Source of the DNA: a virus
Length of the DNA stretch: 21,251 bases
Virus record (IMG/VR): IMGVR_UViG_3300032360_000060
Coordinates: 1-21,251 of that record
Reading direction: 5' to 3' (one strand)
The notes below the pieces were generated by a model, which saw only the letters and a program-made list of their open reading frames with translations, was not told the origin of the DNA and ran no database searches. A program made the position numbers and the translations under genes. Below, in pieces: positions 3,501 through 18,771 of the stretch; positions within the stretch are counted from its first letter, which is position 1; every line of letters starts with the position of its first letter.

Positions 3501-4205
3501 ATGGCCGCAAAAAAGAAAGCCAAAAAAAAGTCTAAATTAAAATTTGAAGAATGTATTGAAATAATTAATGAAGAGGTAAGCAAAAGAAAAGGGAAATGGA
3601 CTTTAACGTCTATAGCTTGGATAGATTTTGAAGATATCTCTCAAATACTAAAAATACATATATTTAAGAAGTGGCATTTATTTGATCAAAGCAGGCCTTT
3701 ATTGCCTTGGCTTAACAGAATAATATCGAATCAGCTTAAAAATTTAATAAGAAATAATTATAGTAATTATTGTAAACCTTGTTTAAAGTGTGCTGCGGCA
3801 GAGCCAGATTCTGGATGTTCTATTTACGGCTCTCAGGACGCAAGGTGCCCACTTTATAAAAGATGGCTGACTAAGAAAAAGTCAGCTTATGATGTTAAAA
3901 TGGCTTTACCGCTAGAAAATCATAAAGGAGAGATTCGCGAGAACCTAACGTATCACCCAGATATAGAGTCAGGAATAATTAAGCTCCATGAAAAGTTAAA
4001 AGAAGTACTAAAACCAAATGAATGGTTGGTTTACGAAAATTTTTATATACAGAATAAGACAGAAGTGGAGATAGCAGAACAATTAAATTTCAAAACAACG
4101 GAGAAAAACAGAAACCCCGGATACAAGCAAATAAAAAACATACAAAAATCTATAATAGCTAAAGCTAAAAAAATACTAGAAAAGGATGATTTAGATTGGT
4201 CGTGA
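3501..4205 (+). CDS. Sigma-70-like phage transcription factor with a cysteine-rich insertion
   Basis: A 234-residue protein with a lysine-rich start. Residues about 40-86 resemble sigma region 2: DISQILKIHIFKKWHLFD, then RPLLPWLNRIISNQLKNLIR. Residues about 163-225 resemble region 4, with LKPNEWLVYENFY followed by a helix-turn-helix-like EVEIAEQLNF and a long basic helix. Between them lies an insertion with C91, C94, C97, C106 and C116, which should bind a metal. Phage sigma-like proteins with such inserts are known and direct host RNA polymerase to phage (usually late) promoters. The adjacent zinc-ribbon protein may be its partner. An atypical promoter element recurring in this window is a possible target. 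Confidence 0.75.
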   Translation: MAAKKKAKKKSKLKFEECIEIINEEVSKRKGKWTLTSIAWIDFEDISQILKIHIFKKWHLFDQSRPLLPWLNRIISNQLKNLIRNNYSNYCKPCLKCAAAEPDSGCSIYGSQDARCPLYKRWLTKKKSAYDVKMALPLENHKGEIRENLTYHPDIESGIIKLHEKLKEVLKPNEWLVYENFYIQNKTEVEIAEQLNFKTTEKNRNPGYKQIKNIQKSIIAKAKKILEKDDLDWS

Positions 4206-6237: not shown

Positions 6238-8091
6238 ATGTGGTCTTGTCCTGAAAAATACGAGAAAGAAATAGGAGATGTAAATTCTAGGTTAGCTAAG
6301 CTAGAAGGGTATCTAGAAGATAAAGAAGCGAAAATCACTCTATCGGAATTTCTCAGAAATAATTTATACTTCACTACGTACCTTTTGAGTGGTATAAAAC
6401 TAGCAGCCTACCAAGAGATAACTTTAAGAGCTTTATTCAATAGGAACTTTAGCATGTGTGTCTGGGGGCGTGGTTGCGGCAAAAGTTTTATAGCTGCGGT
6501 TTATTGTTTTCTTCAGTGCATTTTCGAACCCAACACAAAGATACTCATAGCTGGTCCAACTTTCCGTACAGCGAGATTCATTTTTAACAATATAGAAAAA
6601 ATAGTAGAGACAAAAGAAGCCGTCCTATTGGCTCAGGCCTTTGGAGCTAAAGTAAAAAGGAATGACCAATACGAGTGGAAAATAAATAATGGGACAATTA
6701 CTGCGATTCCATTGAGCGGAGAAAAGATTCGTGGTTTCAGAGCTAACATACTTGTGCTTGATGAGTTTCTCCTTTTGCCAGAAGATATAATTAAAAATGT
6801 TTTGATGCCTTTCTTGGTCGCCCCACAAGACATGGCAAGAAGAATGCATATCAAGGAAGTGGAGAATGAGTTAGTAGAACAGGGAGCGATAGAAGAGAAG
6901 GATAGAACCAAATTTGAAAATGCTTCTAAGATGATAGCTTTATCTTCCGCTAGTTATACTTTCGAAAATTTATACAAAACTTACCAAGAGTGGATAAACA
7001 AAATACACGATAAAGAAAGCTCCTTGGAAGCTAAATATTTCGTATCTCAATTAGGGTATGAAGCTCTACCCGAAGAGATGATAGATAAAACCATTATCGA
7101 CGAAGCTTCGGAGGGGGGCTCTTCCCATTATTCTTTTCAACGAGAATACTGCGCTCAGTTTACCGATGGTAGCGATAGCTATTTCAGCGCAAAAAAGATG
7201 GACGCTTGTACGCTGAAGGGAGATGAGGAGCCTAGCACTCTTTTAATTGGCCGAAGCGGAAAGAGATATGTTTTAGGTATCGACCCTAACATGAGCGACA
7301 GTCCTTCTGCTGACTATTTTGCTATAGCCGTTATGGAGATAGATGATGATACCGGCTTGGGGACCTTGGTTCATTCGTACGCTGGCTTGGGTAACTTAAG
7401 TAATCATGTTAAATACTTAGCTTATTTATTTCAAGCTTTTAACATTGTTTTCGTCTGTTTGGATAATGCAGGTTCTGATGTTTTTATTGATTCTTGTAAT
7501 GAGTCTCAATACTTCAAAGACATACGAACTGAACTAAAGACTATCCCGCTTAATGCTGACGCAGAAGGTTTGGAATATCAAAAGTCTCTAAAGGGAGCCA
7601 AAATAAAATATAATTTAGAAAATAATAAAATTTGTTTTAATCAAGTATTTACTACCACGTTTATTCGTAGAGCCAACGAATATCTTCAAGCTTGTATAGA
7701 TTATAAAAAGGTTTTATTTGCCTCGAGAACTGCTTCTAATGAAACCTTCTTTAACAGAACGAGCACTCTCAGACTACCCTACCCTAAGAAAATAATTTTT
7801 ACTGGAGACAGAAAAGACTGGACTATGCTCGATTTCATAGAACATCAAGACGATATGATTTATCAAACGAAGAGGCAATGTAGCTTAGTAGAGCATAAGG
7901 CTACGGCGCGAGGAGCACAGAACTTTGACTTACCCCAGCACCTCAAAAGATCGACCTCTCCCAATAAAGCTAGAAAAGATAATTATTCCGCTTTAATGTT
8001 AGCGAATTGGGGGCTTAAGCTGTATAACGACATAACTAACGCAGAAACTAACAGTAATAAAGAAACTTTTGCTCCTGTTATGTTTTATTAA
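6238..8091 (+). CDS. terL: Terminase large subunit
   Basis: A 617-residue packaging motor. The ATPase domain shows Walker A GRGCGKS (77-83), the KILIAGPTFRTA strand (101-112), Walker B ILVLDEF (171-177) and a coupling-type segment IALSSAS (233-239). The RNase H-like nuclease domain shows YVLGIDPNMS (344-353, first catalytic aspartate D349), FVCLDNAG (405-412, D409) and the late DFIEHQDDMIYQ (532-543) region with the third acidic site. The C-terminal NYSALMLANWGLKLY helix is typical of terminases. It translocates DNA into the prohead through the portal and cuts the concatemer. It starts one base after the nuclease stop codon. No obvious Shine-Dalgarno sequence, so translation is probably coupled. 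Confidence 0.95.
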   Translation: MWSCPEKYEKEIGDVNSRLAKLEGYLEDKEAKITLSEFLRNNLYFTTYLLSGIKLAAYQEITLRALFNRNFSMCVWGRGCGKSFIAAVYCFLQCIFEPNTKILIAGPTFRTARFIFNNIEKIVETKEAVLLAQAFGAKVKRNDQYEWKINNGTITAIPLSGEKIRGFRANILVLDEFLLLPEDIIKNVLMPFLVAPQDMARRMHIKEVENELVEQGAIEEKDRTKFENASKMIALSSASYTFENLYKTYQEWINKIHDKESSLEAKYFVSQLGYEALPEEMIDKTIIDEASEGGSSHYSFQREYCAQFTDGSDSYFSAKKMDACTLKGDEEPSTLLIGRSGKRYVLGIDPNMSDSPSADYFAIAVMEIDDDTGLGTLVHSYAGLGNLSNHVKYLAYLFQAFNIVFVCLDNAGSDVFIDSCNESQYFKDIRTELKTIPLNADAEGLEYQKSLKGAKIKYNLENNKICFNQVFTTTFIRRANEYLQACIDYKKVLFASRTASNETFFNRTSTLRLPYPKKIIFTGDRKDWTMLDFIEHQDDMIYQTKRQCSLVEHKATARGAQNFDLPQHLKRSTSPNKARKDNYSALMLANWGLKLYNDITNAETNSNKETFAPVMFY

Positions 8092-8117: not shown

Positions 8118-9242
8118 ATGCCCTCCAATATAACAACTGGACAAATAGATGAAGCTGGTTTTACGGAGTTTTTCCATAAAAAAACCTCAGGTACCGTCAC
8201 TAGCACTAGCGGTTTTTACGCTTATAGTAATCCATTAAATTTTTTAGAGACCGCCAGTTTTACTGGGCATAGTGGAGAAATGCTGACTAGAGTCTCGGGT
8301 TTATCGTCTCAACTAAGCGGTACCTTGGATGCCAGCGGAGCACTTCTTTTTGGGAAAGCAGAGGATGTGTCTGGGCATGCTGAATCTTTCGCTACTGGTA
8401 TTAGCGGTTATTTATCCGACTCAATAGATCTGGTTTCGGGACAATTTTCTAGCAGTAGTGGCGAGTTTCTAAAATCTGGAAGTTTTCATCATACGGGTTC
8501 AGGAGATTTTTCTACTTCTGCTGAAACAGGGGCTCTGGCTTTTTCATCTGGGTATAACGACTCTCATGGATTTTTCGTTGCTACCGGTGATACTACAAAT
8601 AAAGTTGGCTGGATGAAGCTCGCTGGCTATCCTGAAATGACAGGTTATAATTCGGCCGTGAGCGGAGAAATAAAAACTAGCCTAAATGCTTCTGGCGCAA
8701 ATTTAGACGCATTGATTACAAACGTCTTAACAGATTCTTCCACTAGTTTTTCAGCTCGAAAAACTTTTGGAGACGGAATACAAACCAAGCAAATAAACCT
8801 AAGTGGGGATGGTGTTACGTTAAGAGTTAATGCCAACAACTCAGTATCTTTTGACGACGTTAGTGGGTCTTTGCTTACTCTTGCTCCCGGTTATGGAGCA
8901 GACGCTCCTGTGTTTTCAGTAACAGATAAAGCGGGCCTTCCTCTGGTTGATGTTTATGATGACGATAGATTAAATTTTGGTCCCTACGGAACAAATCCGT
9001 TTAACATTAGCGGGGAGCGTGTATATTTTGGAAATTATAAATCTTACATAAGTGGAAGCACTGTATCTTTTAGTGGCGACCCCTTGACAGTCAATGATGT
9101 ATTAACGGTAAGTGGGCTATCTGGAGGATATGTATTTTTAAATAATTTACCCGAATGGCCCAACATAGGTGGATTAAATAGTGGTGCACTTTTCAGAAGC
9201 GGTAACCCGGGAGTAGGTCCCGGCATATTATGCGTTGTTTAA
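8118..9242 (+). CDS. SG-repeat fibre-like protein A
   Basis: A 374-residue protein rich in Ser, Gly and Thr. Residues 1-42 (TTGQIDEAGFTEFF, then SGFYAYSNPLNF) match the start of the product at 17938-18771, so both probably share an attachment module. Residues about 45-160 carry SG dipeptides every seven to ten residues (VSGLSSQLSGTLDASG and so on), as in elongated trimeric phage fibres. The C-terminal part is beta-rich and ends in a glycine-rich LFRSGNPGVGPGILCVV. It lies unusually between large terminase and portal. A possible GTGTAAGTAA element lies at 8092-8101 before the ATG. Exact position in the virion is unknown. Confidence 0.7.
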   Translation: MPSNITTGQIDEAGFTEFFHKKTSGTVTSTSGFYAYSNPLNFLETASFTGHSGEMLTRVSGLSSQLSGTLDASGALLFGKAEDVSGHAESFATGISGYLSDSIDLVSGQFSSSSGEFLKSGSFHHTGSGDFSTSAETGALAFSSGYNDSHGFFVATGDTTNKVGWMKLAGYPEMTGYNSAVSGEIKTSLNASGANLDALITNVLTDSSTSFSARKTFGDGIQTKQINLSGDGVTLRVNANNSVSFDDVSGSLLTLAPGYGADAPVFSVTDKAGLPLVDVYDDDRLNFGPYGTNPFNISGERVYFGNYKSYISGSTVSFSGDPLTVNDVLTVSGLSGGYVFLNNLPEWPNIGGLNSGALFRSGNPGVGPGILCVV

Positions 9243-9245
9243 AAA

Positions 9246-11129
9246 ATGACAAAGAAAACAGATAATAAAAAAGAGGATATTAAACCAATGATGACGAGCT
9301 TCGCAGCTTCGCCATATACTACTACCAATCAGTCTACAAGGACGAGGAGGAATGTTGGCGGACAGATAGAGAGGACCAATAGGTTTGAAAATATTGATAA
9401 TGGTTTAGTGCCGTATAAATATAGCAAGGGGATTAATAATAAAAGCTCTCTCGATGTAAGAGATGTTGTCGTTCTTTGTCAAAAAGCTTATTACAATTTT
9501 TCAGTTTTCAGAAATATCATAGATTTGATGACTGAGTTTTCCGCCACGAAGATTTATTTTACAGGTGGTAGCAAAAAATCAAGATCCTTTTTAGAAGCTT
9601 TGTATAAAAAGGTCGACTTGCAGAGTTTTTTAGATAGATTTTTTAGAGAGTATTATCGTTCGGGGAATGTATTTATTCATAGATTTGATTCTAGAATACA
9701 GCCAGAAGACATTAAAAAGATTACTCAAACCTACGGAGCAAAATCTCTTGCCCTAGAGGAAGAGAACACTTTACCGGTCAGATATATAATTCTTAATCCA
9801 GCCGACATACAAATGGCGGGAAATATATCTTTCTTTGACGGAGTGTATCATAAGACCCTAAGTGATTATGAAATAGAGAGACTTAAGAACCCTAGAACAG
9901 AAGAAGACCAGCAAGTATACGACTCGTTAGATGAAGAGGCGAAGAAAGCTCTCAAAAGTAGAAACATAGGGGTGCTAACCATAAAGCTCGACACAGATAA
10001 AGTGGTTCCGGTTTTTTACAAGAAACAAGACTACGAACCTTTCGCTGTGCCAATGGGTTATCCAGTATTAGAGGATATAAACTGGAAAGCGGAAATGAAA
10101 AAAATGGATATGGCAATCACTAGAACAACTAATCAAGCCATACTGTTAATCACCATGGGGGCAGAGCTAAAAGATGGTAGTTTGAACGTTAATCAGAGAG
10201 CCATAGAAACTATGCAAAAACTTTTTGAAAACCAATCGGTTGGAAAAGTTCTTGTTTCCGACTACACCACTGAGGCAAAATTTGTTATACCTGACATAGC
10301 TGGGATACTTGACCCCAAGAAGTATCAGGTCGTTAACAACGACATACAAATGGGACTAAACAATATCTTAGTTGGAGAAGATAAGTTTGCTAATACTAGC
10401 ATCAAAATTCAAGTTTTCATAGAAAGACTGAAGCAGGGAAGAGAAGCTTTCTTGAATCAGTTTCTGGTTCCAGAAATTAAGAGGGTTTGCAGATCTTTGG
10501 GTTTCAAAAATTATCCTAAACCTCATTTCGAAGAGATAGAGCTTAAAGATAAGACGACTTGGAATCGAGTGGTTGCCCAACTAATACAATACGGTACCCT
10601 TACTGCTGAAGAAGGTTTGGAAGCTATCGATTCAGGTAGACTACCAGAACCCACAGAGTCTTTAGAGTCACAAAAGAAATTTAAAGAACTAAGAGACGAG
10701 GGTTATTATCAACCTCTGATAGGGGGGAATCAAGAACAACAAGGTCGCCCAGAAGGATCTAAATCTCCACAGACAACTAAAAAGGTTTCTCCCGTAGGAG
10801 AAAATACAACTGGGAGCGGAAAGTTTAGTGTAGAGAAGATTAAAGAGAATTTATTGTTGGCTCAAAAATTGGAATCTGAAATCCAAGAACAACTAAAGTT
10901 GAAATACGACAATAAAAGAGTAACTAATAAAATCAGAAATCTATCTACTGATATTTGTCAATTAGTTATGGCAAATGAAGTGAGTGAAAAGTGGCTGGAG
11001 AAAGTAAAAGATTATATTGATAATCCAATCGACACCAACCATAACAAAGTAAGAGAGGTTCAGACTATAGGCTGCGAGCATCAAGTTGATGATTATTTAG
11101 CAAGCCTATTACATGCAAGCAAAATTTAG
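9246..11129 (+). CDS. Portal protein
   Basis: A 627-residue protein placed between the terminase and head genes. The pattern fits the phage portal superfamily. An N-terminal part with the SVFRNIIDLMTEFSA helix is followed by RFFREYYRSGNVFIHRFD (about 136-153), VRYIILNPADIQMAG and a long stem-like region. The C-terminal GTLTAEEGLEAIDSGRLPEP (about 453-472) is typical of portals. Portals form the dodecameric ring at one capsid vertex, nucleate prohead assembly, dock the terminase and hold DNA. The last about 100 residues (from FSVEKIKENLLLAQKLESEI) form an extra helical tail. It starts four bases after the fibre gene, with no clear Shine-Dalgarno sequence. Confidence 0.85.
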   Translation: MTKKTDNKKEDIKPMMTSFAASPYTTTNQSTRTRRNVGGQIERTNRFENIDNGLVPYKYSKGINNKSSLDVRDVVVLCQKAYYNFSVFRNIIDLMTEFSATKIYFTGGSKKSRSFLEALYKKVDLQSFLDRFFREYYRSGNVFIHRFDSRIQPEDIKKITQTYGAKSLALEEENTLPVRYIILNPADIQMAGNISFFDGVYHKTLSDYEIERLKNPRTEEDQQVYDSLDEEAKKALKSRNIGVLTIKLDTDKVVPVFYKKQDYEPFAVPMGYPVLEDINWKAEMKKMDMAITRTTNQAILLITMGAELKDGSLNVNQRAIETMQKLFENQSVGKVLVSDYTTEAKFVIPDIAGILDPKKYQVVNNDIQMGLNNILVGEDKFANTSIKIQVFIERLKQGREAFLNQFLVPEIKRVCRSLGFKNYPKPHFEEIELKDKTTWNRVVAQLIQYGTLTAEEGLEAIDSGRLPEPTESLESQKKFKELRDEGYYQPLIGGNQEQQGRPEGSKSPQTTKKVSPVGENTTGSGKFSVEKIKENLLLAQKLESEIQEQLKLKYDNKRVTNKIRNLSTDICQLVMANEVSEKWLEKVKDYIDNPIDTNHNKVREVQTIGCEHQVDDYLASLLHASKI

Positions 11130-11133
11130 AACA

Positions 11134-12312
11134 ATGAGCGAGAATCAAGAAAATATACAAGACGTTAATCAGTACATGGGAGCAGATACTATAGATATTA
11201 TAGTTCCAGATATCCCGCTTCCTCCAGAAGAGCCGGAGAAAAAAGAAGAAGTAGAAGACACAGTTGATGGTGCTTTTAAGTTTGCTTTCATCGGGGCTGG
11301 ACAAGGTGGATCTAGAATAGCGGAGACTTTCCATAAATTGGGTTATAGAAAAATAGGCATTATCAATACAGCCCAGCAGGACTTAAACGGCATCAACGTA
11401 GAAAACAAACTTTGTATAGGTTCCGGAGGAGCAGGCAAAGATAGATCTGTAGCTAAAAAATGTTTCTCTGAAAGAAGAGATGACGTTCTAGATTTCATGC
11501 GTCGATCCTTTGGTGACGATGTAGATAGGGTGTTTGTTTGTGCTGGGGCTGGAGGAGGTTCTGGAGCAGGGACTTTGGTTCCTCTAGTCGAAACCTGTCA
11601 GGAGCTTCACGAAGCTATTGGTGCTGACAGCAAGAAAGTTGGCGTCATCTTAGCTCTGCCAAAATATTCAGAAGGTAGGAAGGTTAATGCTAACGCCCAT
11701 GATACGCTCAAAGAGGCATGTGATTTAGTTAAGAAGGGCGTCGTCTCACCTTTGATAATTATAGATAACGAAAAAACCAGTAAGATATATTCCAATGTTT
11801 CTGTTTCTAATTTTTGGCAGACAGCTAACATGAGTATGGCTGGAGTTTTTCATCTATTTAATATGACGGCTTCGAAAGATAGTTCTTATTCATCTTTTGA
11901 TTCCAGCGATTATAAGAGTGTCTTGGACTCCGGCATAGTTGTTTTCGGGGCTACTCCAGTTCCGGACTGGAAGGATTCCATTAGTATATCTAGAGCGGTT
12001 AGAGGCATAGCTCAAACAGGGAGCATGTCTGGGGGTATAGATATTACAACAGCTAATACAGCTGGGGCTATTTTAATTGGAGGAAAAGAGGTTCTGGATA
12101 ACGTGCCTCAATCCAATCTTGATCAAGCCTTTGACCAGTTGACTAGAATCTTAAGTTCAGGCAGCGTGGTTCATAGGGGTATATATAGCGGAGACAAGGA
12201 GAACTTAACCGTTTTCACTATTATCGGGGGCATAGCGTCTCCTCAGGAGAAATTGGATGAGCTAATGAAACTTGGGGATTTAGAGAAAGCTCCTTTAGAT
12301 AAAAGCTCATAA
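11134..12312 (+). CDS. Tubulin/FtsZ-family GTPase
   Basis: A 392-residue protein from the ATG at 11134; an ATG at 11113 would add seven residues and overlap the portal gene. Residues 1-45 are an acidic, probably disordered extension. The GTPase domain has GAGQGGSR (54-61), INTAQQDL (77-84), GAGKDR (99-104) and the tubulin signature variant GAGGGSGAGT (138-147, Ser where FtsZ has Thr). The catalytic T7-loop equivalent SSFDSSDYKSVL (253-264) keeps both aspartates. The C-terminal activation domain follows (SRAVRGIAQTGSM, ANTAGAILIGG, LTVFTIIGGI). The whole fold is present, so it should bind and hydrolyse GTP and polymerise. Phage tubulins are known (PhuZ centres the phage nucleus; TubZ segregates plasmid-like prophages), but this one sits in the head operon. 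Confidence 0.9.
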   Translation: MSENQENIQDVNQYMGADTIDIIVPDIPLPPEEPEKKEEVEDTVDGAFKFAFIGAGQGGSRIAETFHKLGYRKIGIINTAQQDLNGINVENKLCIGSGGAGKDRSVAKKCFSERRDDVLDFMRRSFGDDVDRVFVCAGAGGGSGAGTLVPLVETCQELHEAIGADSKKVGVILALPKYSEGRKVNANAHDTLKEACDLVKKGVVSPLIIIDNEKTSKIYSNVSVSNFWQTANMSMAGVFHLFNMTASKDSSYSSFDSSDYKSVLDSGIVVFGATPVPDWKDSISISRAVRGIAQTGSMSGGIDITTANTAGAILIGGKEVLDNVPQSNLDQAFDQLTRILSSGSVVHRGIYSGDKENLTVFTIIGGIASPQEKLDELMKLGDLEKAPLDKSS

Positions 12313-12359
12313 AATAATATTTCCAAAAACTAAAAAAACAATGTAATTGAAGATATAAT

Positions 12360-12365
12360 AGGAGA
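12360..12365 (+). promoter_or_regulatory. Shine-Dalgarno site AGGAGA
   Basis: AGGAGA ends eight bases before the ATG at 12374. This is one of the strongest ribosome binding sites in the window and supports high expression of the structural protein. Confidence 0.75.
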
Positions 12366-12373
12366 AATTTATA

Positions 12374-12991
12374 ATGGCAACAACTAACGCAGCATTAAAT
12401 GTTTATAACATAAACAAAGGAGCAGGAGAGGGCGAAGGCAGTAAGCTCACATATTTAACCAGCGGAGCTGGAGCCGGGAAAATCAAATTTATGGGCGCTG
12501 CTACGACGCCCATCAACGCAGCGGCGGTAGCGAAAGCTGCTGAGGTGACAGGAATCGTAATCCCCCTTCAGGGCGCAAGCCTTAACGGTTTGGGTGAGAC
12601 TGATTTTTCTGCACCCCTACCAATGAATATCATAGGTGACCCAACGGAATTAAATTATTCGTTGACCTCTGGCGATCTATTTGATAACGCCGGTAACGAA
12701 GTTAATGGTGGCGCTCAAAAATTTGTGAACGCTGTTCTTGATGGAGCTTATCGAGGTTATCAGTCAGGAGTCGATCAGGGTAGTGGGCTCAACAGTATGA
12801 CGGTTTCGAGAGGAGCCTTAAGTCTTTCCAATACGGCCGTTACTGACGGAACAGGTATTGTTAACACTTGGACAAGATCTTATACAGTCAATTTTAAATA
12901 TTATCAATCTGGAGTTATTCAGGGCGGCGACGACGATACAGCCTCAAGGCCTGATATAGCCAACGATTTGTCAGACGGCGTTCCGTTCTAA
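12374..12991 (+). CDS. Abundant-looking structural protein, role unknown
   Basis: A 205-residue protein rich in Gly, Ala, Ser, Thr and Asn with almost no charged clusters except the acidic QGGDDDTASRPD tail. It has no cysteine, signal peptide or membrane segment. The beta-prone pattern (TEVTGIVIPLQGASL-type strands, NTWTRSYTVNFKYYQSG) fits a virion protein such as a decoration, neck or tube component. A strong Shine-Dalgarno sequence before it and a strong terminator after it argue for high-level expression. It forms the end of the transcription unit that includes portal and the FtsZ-like gene. No family could be assigned. Confidence 0.7.
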   Translation: MATTNAALNVYNINKGAGEGEGSKLTYLTSGAGAGKIKFMGAATTPINAAAVAKAAEVTGIVIPLQGASLNGLGETDFSAPLPMNIIGDPTELNYSLTSGDLFDNAGNEVNGGAQKFVNAVLDGAYRGYQSGVDQGSGLNSMTVSRGALSLSNTAVTDGTGIVNTWTRSYTVNFKYYQSGVIQGGDDDTASRPDIANDLSDGVPF

Positions 12992-13020
12992 TTTCTGAAC
13001 GTCTTGTTTTCCTATTTAAG

Positions 13021-13050
13021 AAACCCTCCGTTTTTTACGGGGGGTTTTTT
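13021..13050 (+). terminator. Rho-independent terminator
   Basis: AAACCCTCCG (13021-13030) pairs with CGGGGGGTTT (13038-13047) in a ten-base-pair stem with one G-T pair and a seven-base loop. A run of six T's (13045-13050) follows. It lies 30 bases after the stop of the structural gene and separates it from the next unit. Confidence 0.92.
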
Positions 13051-13090
13051 GCGGGGGTTTTCATTTTTTTTATAAGTTTTTTAAAAATAA

Positions 13091-13100
13091 GTGTATAAAC
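13091..13100 (+). promoter_or_regulatory. Candidate promoter element GTGTATAAAC
   Basis: GTGTATAAAC follows the terminator and lies 16 bases before the ATG at 13117. The same core appears before 17501 and, as GTGTAATA variants, before several other genes. No -35 hexamer is clear, as in phage late promoters that consist mainly of a -10 box. Confidence 0.45.
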
Positions 13101-13116
13101 CCTTAGGTAACTAAAA

Positions 13117-13704
13117 ATGTCTTTCAGTCATAAAATGAAGGGGCTTGATATAGATTTGTCTGTCAGTGGTTCTAATTTGAACCTTAGGCCTTCGGATGAG
13201 TCAAAAAACAATTTGATTTCGGACGAGAAAGAAGTTGTTTTTTCTAAAAAAATTATCGAAGTTTTGAAATTCAAAACAGGAGAACACAACGAAAATTGTT
13301 CTAGAAAAGTGGCGTTTTCCCAACTGAGAGATATTTACAAGGAAGCCAGCAAGACCGAAGGGGATTCTAAAATTAAATTTGCTCTAGCTAGAGTCAATAT
13401 GTTTTTAAAGATAGTTAGAGGAGAGAAGATAAAGGAGATTTATGCCAAAACTGACGACTTGGAAACAAAAGGTTCCCTACAGGGTTTCGTCCTAGAAGAA
13501 GAGGAACCCGCTAATAGAGACGAAGCTATCGATATGTCTGATAATTTTTATCCTAACGAAGAAGCTTTTCTGTTGGCGGAAAAAGACATAACAAAACATA
13601 ATTTAAGTGACTACGATTATAGAGACGTGGACGATCTATATTTAGATACGGAAGAAGAAATAAGAGCTGAGGCTTCGGCTTGGCTAGACAATATAATTAA
13701 TTAA
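13117..13704 (+). CDS. Unknown charged protein of the head operon
   Basis: A 195-residue acidic protein. It contains EVVFSKKIIEVLKFKTGEHN, then CSRKVAFSQLRDIYKEASK (about 81-99) and a helical KFALARVNMFLKIVRGEKI. The C-terminal third is very acidic (DYDYRDVDDLYLDTEEE). The SRKVAFSQL..IY segment resembles a KVSLSQLK.VYRRG-type motif seen in some phage head-region proteins, but the match is too short to assign function. It is the first gene after a terminator and a promoter-like sequence. A virion or assembly role is suggested by position only. Confidence 0.6.
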   Translation: MSFSHKMKGLDIDLSVSGSNLNLRPSDESKNNLISDEKEVVFSKKIIEVLKFKTGEHNENCSRKVAFSQLRDIYKEASKTEGDSKIKFALARVNMFLKIVRGEKIKEIYAKTDDLETKGSLQGFVLEEEEPANRDEAIDMSDNFYPNEEAFLLAEKDITKHNLSDYDYRDVDDLYLDTEEEIRAEASAWLDNIIN

Positions 13705-14007: not shown

Positions 14008-15519
14008 ATGAAATATAATTATACTACTATTTTTAGTTCTGAAGTTAGACCTATTGTTTCCGAAGAGAGAGATAAATATTTAGCTCTAGCCTCAAACATA
14101 GAAATATCGCAGTTCGTACCTGAGGTAGATACGGAGAAGCAGGTAGATCTTCTGCCGATAGCCTTTAACGCTTTTGTCGCCAACAGAGTAAATAGAAATG
14201 GTGACGTTGTCGATACGGATACGGCGCTAGCTTTTCATGAGGATTTTAAAAATAAACCTATCAATATAGAACACAATAGAGATAGGGTGATCGGAACTAT
14301 CCTAACAGCAGGTTTTTCTGAGTTTGGTACTGATAAACCTTTAACGGAAGAACAAGTTAAAGAGACGGAAGGGCCATTTAATGTTACCTTGGGTGGCGTC
14401 ATATGGAAGATGGTCAGCCCAAAGACAGCAGATTTAATAGAAGAGTCTGCAGACCCTAGCAGTGAAGATTATATGAGAATCAGTGCTAGTTGGGAATTAG
14501 GATTCGCTGATTATAATTTAGTTATTTTGGAAGGAACCGATAAGAACATAGAAAACGGAACCGTGATAGATAACGAAGTTGAAATTAAAGCCTTGGAAGA
14601 TAATCTGAGAGCTTTAGGGGGGGACGGGAAAACTAAAGATGGTAAGTTCGTCTATAGACAAGTCATAGGAAATGTTGTACCTTTGGGCATTGGACTGACA
14701 GAGAGTCCTGCTGCGGACGTAAAAGGTATAGCAACAGACAAAACAGAGGAACTCGAAGACCTAAAAAGTAAAATCCAAATAGAGCCCCTAAATAAAGACG
14801 AAAAAGACACTTTTGCTGAAGCCGATAAAACTTCACAAAAACAAGAAAATAATGTAATAATCCAAAACGAGGAAAAAATTATGAAAATCGAAAGTATTAA
14901 AGACATCACAACTGAGTCTTTGAAGGAGCTTTCCGCCTCGGCTGTTTCCGATTATATTGAATCGGAACTCAAGGAAGCTTCCGAGAGATTCTCAGCCGAA
15001 AAGCAAAAGGTGGAGGCAAGTCTCAAAGAAGCTCAAGAAAAAATCGAATCTGTTAGCGCGGAGTTCGATAAAGTCAAAGCTGAACTTGAATCTGTTACAG
15101 AGAAGTTGAGCGGTCTTGAAGCCGAAAAAACAAAAAAAGAAGCCGAAGAACTATTCAATCAAAGAATGGCATCCTTGGACGAATCTTTTGTTTTGCAGGA
15201 TGACGATCGCAAAGTACTTGCTGAGCAGGTTAAGAATCTTGATGAAGAGGGATGGGAATCTTTCTCCAGCAGGATCAATGTTTTGCTAAGAGATAAGTCA
15301 AGAGAAGTCTTGGCTAAGAAAGAAGCTGAAGAGAAGGAGACCTCTCAGGAGGACACGACAGAAGAGTCTAAAGCCTCTGATGATATCGTTGATGAAGCGA
15401 TTGATAGAGGAGAGAAGGATTCGGAGGTTGTTCCTGCTTCAACAGAAGCTTCAGAACCCTCTACTTATGATAAGTACAAAAGTGCTTTCAACGTAGATCA
15501 ATTTGAAATTAGTTATTAA
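14008..15519 (+). CDS. Prohead protease fused to scaffold
   Basis: A 503-residue protein. Residues about 48-175 fit the phage prohead protease fold (S78/U9-like): FNAFVANRVNRNGDVVDTD, KPINIEHNRDRVIG with likely catalytic H89, and DYMRISASWELGFADY with likely catalytic serine S159. Residues about 292-400 are a long coiled coil (SELKEASERFSAEKQKVEAS and further heptads), typical of scaffold. The tail (EEKETSQEDTTEESKASDD) is acidic. The protease matures the prohead by cutting scaffold and capsid proteins; the scaffold part shapes the shell. A second in-frame start at 14881 probably makes the scaffold alone. The order protease-scaffold, decoration, major capsid is standard. Confidence 0.88.
   Translation: MKYNYTTIFSSEVRPIVSEERDKYLALASNIEISQFVPEVDTEKQVDLLPIAFNAFVANRVNRNGDVVDTDTALAFHEDFKNKPINIEHNRDRVIGTILTAGFSEFGTDKPLTEEQVKETEGPFNVTLGGVIWKMVSPKTADLIEESADPSSEDYMRISASWELGFADYNLVILEGTDKNIENGTVIDNEVEIKALEDNLRALGGDGKTKDGKFVYRQVIGNVVPLGIGLTESPAADVKGIATDKTEELEDLKSKIQIEPLNKDEKDTFAEADKTSQKQENNVIIQNEEKIMKIESIKDITTESLKELSASAVSDYIESELKEASERFSAEKQKVEASLKEAQEKIESVSAEFDKVKAELESVTEKLSGLEAEKTKKEAEELFNQRMASLDESFVLQDDDRKVLAEQVKNLDEEGWESFSSRINVLLRDKSREVLAKKEAEEKETSQEDTTEESKASDDIVDEAIDRGEKDSEVVPASTEASEPSTYDKYKSAFNVDQFEISY
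14869..14873 (+). promoter_or_regulatory. Internal Shine-Dalgarno site GAGGA for free scaffold
   Basis: GAGGA lies inside the protease-scaffold gene, seven bases before an in-frame ATG at 14881. It is placed exactly at the junction between the protease part and the coiled coil. Confidence 0.6.
14881..15519 (+). CDS. Scaffold protein from an internal in-frame start
   Basis: The ATG at 14881 is codon 292 of the protease-scaffold frame and would yield 212 residues starting MKIESIKDITTESLKELS. It comprises only the coiled coil and the acidic tail, ending in DQFEISY. Phage lambda makes its scaffold Nu3 in the same way from within the protease gene C, so an excess of free scaffold over protease fusion is the expected purpose. 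The call rests on the internal ribosome site and the domain border; no direct proof is available. Confidence 0.6.
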   Translation: MKIESIKDITTESLKELSASAVSDYIESELKEASERFSAEKQKVEASLKEAQEKIESVSAEFDKVKAELESVTEKLSGLEAEKTKKEAEELFNQRMASLDESFVLQDDDRKVLAEQVKNLDEEGWESFSSRINVLLRDKSREVLAKKEAEEKETSQEDTTEESKASDDIVDEAIDRGEKDSEVVPASTEASEPSTYDKYKSAFNVDQFEISY

Positions 15520-16223: not shown

Positions 16224-17393
16224 ATGAGACTTAAGTTAAAAAACACCCCAGAACAGGTTGAACTTATCAAATCGATGGGTTCCAAGAATTCAATAGTTGC
16301 ACGTGAAGCTTCTGAGGCTTTTGCTGCTTTTCTAGGCCCTGTGGTCCAGAAAGTTTTGCAGCAGGCAGCCACAGCAGGAGCTATCTACACGGATGCACCT
16401 TTTAATCAAGACGAGGGCGCTAGTTACCCACTCGATCTTTACTACAACGAAACAAATGATGGTTATGTCAGCATTTGGTCCCAGAACGTTGCTGGTGGTC
16501 TTCCGACCTCCCAAGACGTCTCTGCGATTCAAGAGTTGAAAATCGCCACGTATCGTTTAGATACGGCTGTTTCGATCACCAAGAAATATGCAAGACAAGC
16601 AAGGCTCGATGTTGTGAGCAAGCTTATTGAGCGTATGTCTCAAGAAGTGCTTCTTAAGCAGGAGAGAAATGCATGGGCCGTGGCTCTGTATGCTCTTGCT
16701 AATGCGAGCACAAGCCATGTAACTGCAGGCTCTGTTGGTATTACCAATTTGGCTTCGGGAACGCATGTTATACCAGCCCACAATACTAATGTATTCCAGC
16801 TTCAGGACCTCAATAAGTTGATGACCCTGAATAAGAGAATCAATCAGTCTTGGGCGTCTGGTACAGCTGACGCGCCTTACAGTGCAGGTATTACTGATAT
16901 GTATGTCAGCCCTGAGATCAAGGAGCAGATTCGCGCTTTCGCTTATCAGCCCATGAACACAAGGCAGGCGACTTCAGGCGTGAGTTCTATTCCGCTACCT
17001 GATAACATTCGTACTGACGTGTTTAATCAGGCCGGTATGCAAGAGATCTACGGTGTGAATATCGTTGAGCTCAACGAGCTTGGTATTGGACAGAAGTACA
17101 ACACCTTGTTTGATGGCTTCGAGGCAGGTTCTGCTAAGATCGCTCCTCATGCTTCTAACGCTGGTGAAGCTGATGTGTTCGCTGGTGCGACCCATGAGCT
17201 CGCAGTTGGAGTTGACAACAGTAAGGGCGCGTTTGTTCGCGCTATCTCAGTGGATGCCGATACAGGCGATACTTTCACCACTCAACCGGATGATCAGTTT
17301 ACTCAGAGAAATGAGAGAATTGGTTTCTATGGTTCTTTGGAAGAGGGTAGAGTTTGTTTGGACGCCCGCGCAATTGTTGGCTTGACGGTCTAA
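16224..17393 (+). CDS. Major capsid protein, HK97 fold
   Basis: A 389-residue shell protein. The N-terminal helix (residues 5-60) is followed by an extended Asp/Gly/Tyr-rich region (APFNQDEGASYPLDLYYNET) consistent with the E-loop. A long helix (KLIERMSQEVLLKQERNAWA, about 134-153) is the usual spine helix. MYVSPEIKEQIRAF (about 228-241) and GVNIVELNELGIGQKY match the P and A domain strands and loops seen in HK97-like shells. The end (RIGFYGSLEEGRVCLDARAIVGLTV) is beta-rich. Position after scaffold and decoration genes, the near-perfect ribosome site, CGT/CGC arginine codons and a following terminator all support major capsid protein. The family is assigned from pattern and context, not by search. 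Confidence 0.85.
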   Translation: MRLKLKNTPEQVELIKSMGSKNSIVAREASEAFAAFLGPVVQKVLQQAATAGAIYTDAPFNQDEGASYPLDLYYNETNDGYVSIWSQNVAGGLPTSQDVSAIQELKIATYRLDTAVSITKKYARQARLDVVSKLIERMSQEVLLKQERNAWAVALYALANASTSHVTAGSVGITNLASGTHVIPAHNTNVFQLQDLNKLMTLNKRINQSWASGTADAPYSAGITDMYVSPEIKEQIRAFAYQPMNTRQATSGVSSIPLPDNIRTDVFNQAGMQEIYGVNIVELNELGIGQKYNTLFDGFEAGSAKIAPHASNAGEADVFAGATHELAVGVDNSKGAFVRAISVDADTGDTFTTQPDDQFTQRNERIGFYGSLEEGRVCLDARAIVGLTV

Positions 17394-17937: not shown

Positions 17938-18771
17938 ATGTCGCACACTATTAAGACAGGCCAGCTAGACCTTGGTGGTTTACAGGAATATTTTACTACT
18001 AACTTATCTGGTAGCGAAACAAACACAACGGGGTGGTATCCTTATGCAGGAAACCCTTCTGATTTCGCGACATCTGGCTATATCACTGGAATAAGTGGGG
18101 ATATATCAGGTTACATAGACTCAGTAAGCGGCGTATTAGCTACGAAGATAGCGGAAACTGGTCTTGCCGTAAGCGGCTTTGCATCTGGAATTCATACAGA
18201 ATTAAAATCTGATGTAAATTTTGTAAGCGGAAAAATCGAGGAACTAAGCGGCTCCTATGTAATCACTCAAGCCCTTAGCGAGGGTAACGAGAACGACATA
18301 GATTCTTTGAGTGGGGATCTAGGATCCACTGGCCAGCTTTTATCTACTTGGATTACTGGGGAAAGCGGAGTTGGGGTAAGTGGATTTGTCACTGGTTTTG
18401 TAGATACTACTAGTGGGGCTCTAAGCACCAAGATATCAAATTTAAATGTAGATTTAAGGGACCATGTAGAAGAAGATTATCTATCCAAAAGGAATGAATC
18501 TGAGTTAGTATCAGGTTCGGTATCTTTTGCAAAAACTTCTAGGTTCAAGCAGTCGGTAGAACTTGAAAGGGTAGCTGACCACGATGAAGTTGCGACATAT
18601 CAAAGTGGAGTTAATATATATACTACCGTTACTGGCGTTTTAGAGGGTCCATCTAATGCCGCACACCAAGTCTTAACAACATTTTTGAGATACCCGCATA
18701 GCGGAGATAATGTTAGGCAAAACTTAGTTATTGGCTCCTTTATGTATAGTGGGGGAGCGATACCAACTTAA
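17938..18771 (+). CDS. SG-repeat fibre-like protein B
   Basis: A 277-residue paralogue of the product at 8118-9242. The shared N-terminal module has TGQLDLGGLQEYF and GWYPYAGNPSDF at equivalent positions. Residues about 44-165 carry SG dipeptides at short regular spacing (GISGDISGYIDSVSGVLA and similar), typical of slender trimeric fibres. The C-terminal 100 residues differ wholly from the paralogue and contain helical (LDLRDHVEEDYLSKRNESEL-like) and beta parts. The ATG at 17938 fits the shared start. An ATG at 17930 is in another frame. It is followed after five bases by the large adhesin, so the two may act together in the tail. Confidence 0.72.
   Translation: MSHTIKTGQLDLGGLQEYFTTNLSGSETNTTGWYPYAGNPSDFATSGYITGISGDISGYIDSVSGVLATKIAETGLAVSGFASGIHTELKSDVNFVSGKIEELSGSYVITQALSEGNENDIDSLSGDLGSTGQLLSTWITGESGVGVSGFVTGFVDTTSGALSTKISNLNVDLRDHVEEDYLSKRNESELVSGSVSFAKTSRFKQSVELERVADHDEVATYQSGVNIYTTVTGVLEGPSNAAHQVLTTFLRYPHSGDNVRQNLVIGSFMYSGGAIPT

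Follow-up and report, generated by a model that had tools for sequence, protein, structure and literature searches.

A tubulin-like GTPase linked to the portal gene in uncultured large phages

To our knowledge, the phage-encoded tubulins described so far serve either genome partition (TubZ) or the spindle that nucleus-forming phages build (PhuZ). The portal-linked tubulins described here, found in the packaging operon of at least 114 contigs, make up a third phage lineage. Their closest described relatives, in sequence profile and in structure, are TubZ/RepX of Bacillales plasmids (PDB 4ei7 and 2xka) and TubZ of phage c-st, with which they have in common the fold and the T4 and T7 catalytic motifs. 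TubZ ends in a C-terminal helix, H11, and an extended tail (PMC3678025). In contrast, the model of the portal-linked tubulin shows no such extension and ends in a 10-residue helix (371–380) followed by about 10 disordered residues. The gene also lacks an adjacent TubR-type gene and a local repeat array, its product adds a disordered N-terminal tail with a PD.P.P motif, and it adjoins a portal gene rather than a partition operon. Since the TubR-type gene, the repeat array and the long C-terminal tail are all missing, the protein should not be classed as a TubZ partition protein.

PhuZ (phages phiKZ and 201phi2-1) is also a phage-encoded tubulin, and a role in moving heads may be common to the two. 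According to published work its filaments transport capsids to the phage nucleus (PMC13282480), and the protein is reported to be dispensable although it increases the yield of phage (PMC10299810). The portal-linked tubulin differs from it in belonging to a separate clade and in having no PhuZ-type C-terminal helix or tail in the model; its phages differ in their head genes, which are unrelated in sequence, and in the absence of a multisubunit RNA polymerase from the long records. With cellular FtsZ and CetZ it has the fold and active site in common. What is new is the lineage and genomic context of a phage tubulin, the link between tubulin and heads itself having a precedent in PhuZ. Our search of the open literature, which took in little of the subscription journals and preprints, found no description of this family.

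The gene in question lies in a 21,251-nucleotide stretch of viral DNA (IMG/VR record IMGVR_UViG_3300032360_000060, positions 1 to 21,251), which we call the window. A sequence-only reading of the window had described a complete tubulin/FtsZ-like GTPase within a head operon, and had contrasted it with known phage tubulins as belonging to replication or segregation systems. The description is borne out by family search and model; the contrast was too sharp, given the reported carriage of capsids by PhuZ.

Fold, active site and placement among tubulins

The Pfam Tubulin model PF00091 matches the window tubulin with an E value of 1.7e-10 and a score of 42 bits, above the cut-off of 33, and a sequence search of the PDB returns RepX/TubZ first (RepX, E 5.5e-18) and FtsZ second, while PHROGs gave no significant match. 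The assigned start, ATG 11134, agrees with the conserved start of close relatives; a second in-frame ATG lies upstream at 11113. An AlphaFold model made with 30 relatives as input (mean pLDDT 80, pTM 0.81) has a Rossmann-type GTPase domain, a long H7 helix and the C-terminal activation domain that the sequence-only reading had recognised. Foldseek placed TubZ at the top of the matches to this model, with FtsZ and CetZ after it, and VIA-align gave Z scores of 35.7 for TubZ, 34.5 for CetZ2 and about 31 for FtsZ (range 30–36). The T5 and T6 motifs are also similar in the window tubulin and TubZ.

The nucleotide loops are present as first read. The T4 pattern G.GGG[ST]G.G and the T7 pattern FD..D[YF] each occur in 140 of 140 full-length relatives, so that the serine in place of threonine in GGGSGAG is ordinary variation in this family, and both T7 aspartates are universal. 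A dN/dS of 0.02–0.055 indicates purifying selection. The acidic N-terminal extension, earlier put at 45 residues, measures about 46. Five of its residues (D21, P25, D26, P28 and P30) are invariant in an alignment of 30 diverse relatives, and the D...PD.P.P pattern recurs in altered form in divergent members; if some part of the protein binds a partner, this disordered tail is the likeliest.

Table 1. Features of the window that bear on the tubulin gene and its setting
Feature	Position	Strand	Basis
Terminase large subunit	6238..8091	+	PF03237 E 9.9e-8; phrog_2 E 5.4e-26
Portal protein	9246..11129	+	the top PDB matches listed for its model are all portals
Tubulin/FtsZ-superfamily GTPase, 392 aa	11134..12312	+	PF00091 over cut-off; AlphaFold model matched to TubZ/CetZ/FtsZ
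Acidic N-terminal extension, predicted disordered, residues 1–46	11134..11271	+	mostly pLDDT 30–50; in all aligned relatives
D...PD.P.P linear motif in extension, residues 21–31	11194..11226	+	conserved across 30 relatives
T1 nucleotide loop GAGQGGS, residues 54–60	11293..11313	+	aligned with FtsZ/TubZ T1
T4 signature GAGGGSGAG, residues 138–146	11545..11571	+	pattern kept in 140/140 full-length relatives
T7 loop FDSSDY, D256 and D259	11896..11913	+	relatives' pattern; aligned with D..D of E. coli FtsZ
Protein downstream of tubulin, function not assigned	12374..12991	+	no family match; close relatives only
Probable prohead protease/scaffold gene	14008..15519	+	position and conservation only
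Probable major capsid protein	16224..17393	+	position and conservation only

Whether the protein would group with PhuZ or with bacterial FtsZ had been left open by the sequence-only reading; it groups with neither. Profile comparison puts TubZ closest (E 6.6e-39 over 323 columns), followed by FtsZ (E 1.1e-17 over 244 columns, 27%) and by a weak match to PhuZ (3e-6, 88%, 91 columns), and an HMM of the portal-linked family does not match PhuZ. In a tree of 28 sequences, which has long branches, includes no confirmed CetZ and is firm only in its separations, the portal-linked tubulins form one clade (100/99), with PhuZ (100/100) and FtsZ (100/100) apart; they are placed among the plasmid TubZs, which are paraphyletic and not one clade. 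By these sequence comparisons the portal-linked tubulin is a lineage of its own, neither PhuZ nor FtsZ, with plasmid TubZ nearest.

An identification as FtsZ was rejected on the score against TIGR00065 (ftsZ), which is far under the equivalog cut-off (E 8.1e-16, 58.3 bits against 295.2), and on the position outside the FtsZ clade. Identification as PhuZ was rejected on its separate clade, the miss by the family HMM and the weakness of the profile match. Among 50,697 phage records the sole match is gp138 of Bacillus phage G, a putative FtsZ-like protein with 23.6% identity that scores 74 bits against the portal-linked family profile; it sits among nucleotide-metabolism genes (thymidine kinase and thymidylate synthase are nearby), not head genes. 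The best viral structure match is A0A6J5RW92 in BFVD, annotated as 'FtsZ Cell division GTPase' of an uncultured Caudovirales phage (29% identity, E 1.9e-30), which has 452 residues against the 392 of the window tubulin.

Between the window and two relatives (L041 and L001), nucleotides 11134–12250 of the tubulin gene are 92–96% identical, as against 54–85%, mostly 60–78%, in the flanks. A recent exchange between lineages that involved nothing but the tubulin allele would leave such a contrast.

Linkage of the tubulin to the portal gene

The gene upstream of the tubulin is a portal by predicted fold. Family searches by sequence gave no match for it, and its model is modest (pLDDT 67), so the identity rests on the agreement of the structure matches and not on their fit. 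The tubulin had been said to lie between a portal and a highly expressed structural protein, and only the first half of that statement stands: the gene on the other side has no family match, is absent from the divergent relatives compared, and offers only a promoter-like TTGAAG-N17-TATAAT and a GGAG ribosome site in front of it. Further downstream, the probable protease/scaffold gene is conserved in divergent relatives and has no informative family match, and the probable capsid gene has only a non-significant match to Phage_capsid_4 (E 0.26).

To survey conservation of the portal–tubulin pair, 2.9 million viral contigs were scanned twice with profiles, which confirmed 158 and 238 relatives, and the results of a first scan were added; the loci come from 126 distinct contigs, some of them being the same contig twice. 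A portal gene lies upstream and on the same strand in all 114 contigs that reach far enough. The earlier observation is therefore stronger than was stated, the linkage being conserved in every informative relative. Of the contigs with room to show it, 72 of 75 have the terminase (TerL) upstream, and 37 of 42 have the candidate capsid gene on the downstream side; in one short contig (L112) the portal is not in view. Portal and tubulin are separated by −12 to +79 nt in 111 of 137 loci, and most commonly by 2–7 nt, which suggests translational coupling. The window fits this pattern, as the portal stop codon is 4 nt ahead of the tubulin start with no clear ribosome site before it, again suggestive of coupling. 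A gap of 1.3–1.5 kb (23/137 loci), occupied where inspected by one gene of about 430 codons, or of 3.6–5.0 kb (3/137) is found in the remainder, and about a fifth of the relatives have at least one gene in between.

The tubulin is single copy in each of 12 records of up to 162 kb. It is better conserved than the portal, with a mean identity to the window of 63% against 51% in divergent relatives and of 66% against 56% among 50 taxa. Distances in the two proteins are correlated (Mantel r 0.905; 0 of 999 permutations as high), and the pair has thus largely been inherited together.

A portal-based scan, independent of the tubulin, returned at least 572 portal relatives. A tubulin is in view in 7 of the nearest 80, many loci ending soon after the portal. 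The tubulin-less relatives have the same order of sigma-like gene, 4196 gene, ERCC4 nuclease, terminase and portal, and the records of this group (13–118 kb, all incomplete) hold no tubulin of any kind. In one tubulin-less relative (L160) the next gene, no more than about 200 nt beyond the portal, is homologous to window gene 13117, and the protease and capsid candidates come after it; by gene order this is the site in its tubulin-free state. The portal tree requires five changes between the two states; the tubulin may have been gained once and later lost in some lineages.

Since related phages in which no tubulin was detected keep the terminase–portal block, head assembly does not in general require one. 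Between portal and capsid the gene content varies, and fibre, membrane and lipoprotein genes are also found there, so that position alone is a sign of late expression and not of heads. From this comparison of gene content, the tubulin is a clade-specific late gene in a variable interval rather than part of the general head machine. Close relatives with and without it form a matched set and offer a natural comparison.

Docking of the filament on the portal had been proposed among other links to head assembly. A portal signature linked to the tubulin was rejected: with 52 portals from loci with tubulin aligned to 18 from loci without it, no column, block, residue or insert separates the groups. 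As no portal feature tracks the tubulin, direct docking is unsupported, and the intervening genes in about one-fifth of relatives and the many portal relatives without tubulin tell against it as well. The broader proposal, a late filament linked to assembly, is plausible.

Possible roles of the tubulin

The reading that we tentatively prefer is a late, GTP-dependent filament of TubZ grade that organises virion production in space in large lytic phages. From what is computed (fold, active-site residues, selection, a constant place within the late packaging operon, a separate lineage) we infer late expression, polymerisation, a partner for the tail and a cellular role. The tubulin would be translated together with the portal, and the coupling implies that it is made late in infection. 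With its nucleotide pocket and T7 loop both intact, the window tubulin probably polymerises in the standard way into dynamic filaments: subunits would stack head to tail and hydrolyse GTP where they meet, each GTPase site being completed by T7-loop aspartates from the neighbouring subunit. Such filaments might place or move, for example, proheads or packaged genomes within the cell, and the conserved N-terminal tail would recruit a partner. By analogy with PhuZ the role is most likely the spatial organisation of assembly, and positioning or trafficking of capsids is possible. The data suggest, then, that these phages use a cytoskeleton of their own late in infection, most likely for organising virus assembly, which raises the question of whether phages without a nucleus also organise virion assembly by tubulin filaments. 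A more committed version, which we consider unlikely, has the tubulin built into the morphogenesis module and made together with the portal, nucleating on, positioning or moving proheads in cells with no phage nucleus. If it were true, tubulin-based capsid transport would have arisen in a lineage apart from PhuZ.

The alternatives rank in the order interference with host division, virion component and DNA partition. The first, on a par with the version just described, is that the tubulin disturbs host division, perhaps by titrating FtsZ or its partners or by co-assembling with them, so that cells stop dividing and enlarge before lysis. The FtsZ-family fold is consistent with this, as are the small membrane and lipoprotein genes, lysis-related in look by sequence, that follow the tubulin in divergent lineages (L043, L117 and L131), and the disordered tail contains a short motif that includes DIP. 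This recalls the FtsZ C-terminal peptide, the likeness going no further than three residues. However, a complete GTPase site strictly kept in all 140 relatives argues for an active, self-assembling enzyme, and the high divergence from FtsZ makes co-assembly unlikely. Genes for host takeover, moreover, are usually found in early regions and not in the packaging operon.

Somewhat less probable is a tubulin that is packaged in the virion or bound at the portal vertex and is ejected or put to use as infection begins. Its conserved adjacency to the portal favours this reading, and the acidic disordered tail with its invariant motif could be a packaging tag, but the aligned portals bear no signature of the tubulin and those of close relatives work without it. 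We know of no virion proteomics for this group of phages.

Segregation of the genomes of a phage-plasmid by a TubZ-type system is very unlikely, even though TubZ is nearest by profile, by PDB sequence search (RepX) and by fold. Directly before tubZ, most of the plasmid operons compared have a small gene of about 90–115 aa, the expected place of tubR, whereas nearly all relatives of the window have a portal or fibre-like gene there. No tubC/iteron repeat array was found in window 10900–13200, the model has no TubZ-type C-terminal helix and tail, and a 158-kb relative looks lytic (rIIA, DNA polymerase III alpha, ribonucleotide reductase), and the proteins scanned from it include neither a phage integrase nor a partition protein. 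Least probable of all is that the group are unrecognised nucleus-forming phages with a PhuZ-like spindle, for while their genomes are large (at least 162 kb) and trafficking of capsids is already a PhuZ role (PMC13282480), PhuZ forms a separate clade and barely matches by profile, the replicative polymerase resembles bacterial Pol III alpha, and nine long records hold no multisubunit RNA polymerase.

The phages, their possible hosts and other genes

Besides the genes just named, the 158-kb member encodes DnaB, six tRNAs and collagen-like fibres. The RNA polymerase beta domain was not found in the nine long records, all incomplete, and no marker of a phage nucleus has so far appeared in these parts. 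These results and the genes of the 158-kb member point to large, lytic bacterial phages unlike phiKZ. The group appears to be uncultured and mostly marine, the latter judged from the sample sets. Neither the portal nor the capsid gene has a cultured relative among 50,697 phage records, and the terminase has distant matches only. No relative of the tubulin was confirmed in 84,980 bacterial and archaeal genomes. Portal relatives with 38–51% identity lie on three MAG contigs (Flavobacteriales, Marinimicrobia and one further bacterium); as a clue to the host the Flavobacteriales and Marinimicrobia bins are weak, because binning a phage contig with a MAG does not prove that the phage infects that organism.

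Several other genes of the window deserve mention. The product of 3501–4205 resembles a sigma-70/ECF factor (TIGR02937, E 2.6e-8, below cut-off) and is possibly a factor for late transcription; the gene lies upstream of the ERCC4 nuclease and terminase genes whether or not the group has a tubulin. A pair of related, fibre-like proteins rich in SG (8118–9242 and 17938–18771) stand on either side of the packaging module, and the second cross-matches the protein at the site of the first in relatives, with 24–37% identity. At the left end of the window are two related small membrane-protein genes in divergent orientation (1215–1637 on the minus strand and 1697–2017 on the plus strand) and, at 131–700 on the minus strand, a low-complexity protein of GSAGSDGSSG and PAPAPVTSDPNSS repeats.

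Among the relatives, a ClpP-family protease gene (PF00574, E 3.4e-27) is found downstream of the tubulin at L046:11878–12621, and proteins with similar starts occur at the same place in L050 and L137. Small membrane and lipoprotein genes run between the tubulin and the protease candidate in two divergent lineages (L043:11253–13471 and L131:11818–13027); they are lysis-like by appearance only, and one of the lipoproteins has a CGP motif and a marginal match to Peptidase_C39. The 158-kb relative also carries an IS605 OrfB/Cas12f-like transposon protein (L254:1130–2608) and an aldehyde dehydrogenase gene (L253:9467–10948; PF00171, E 2e-126).
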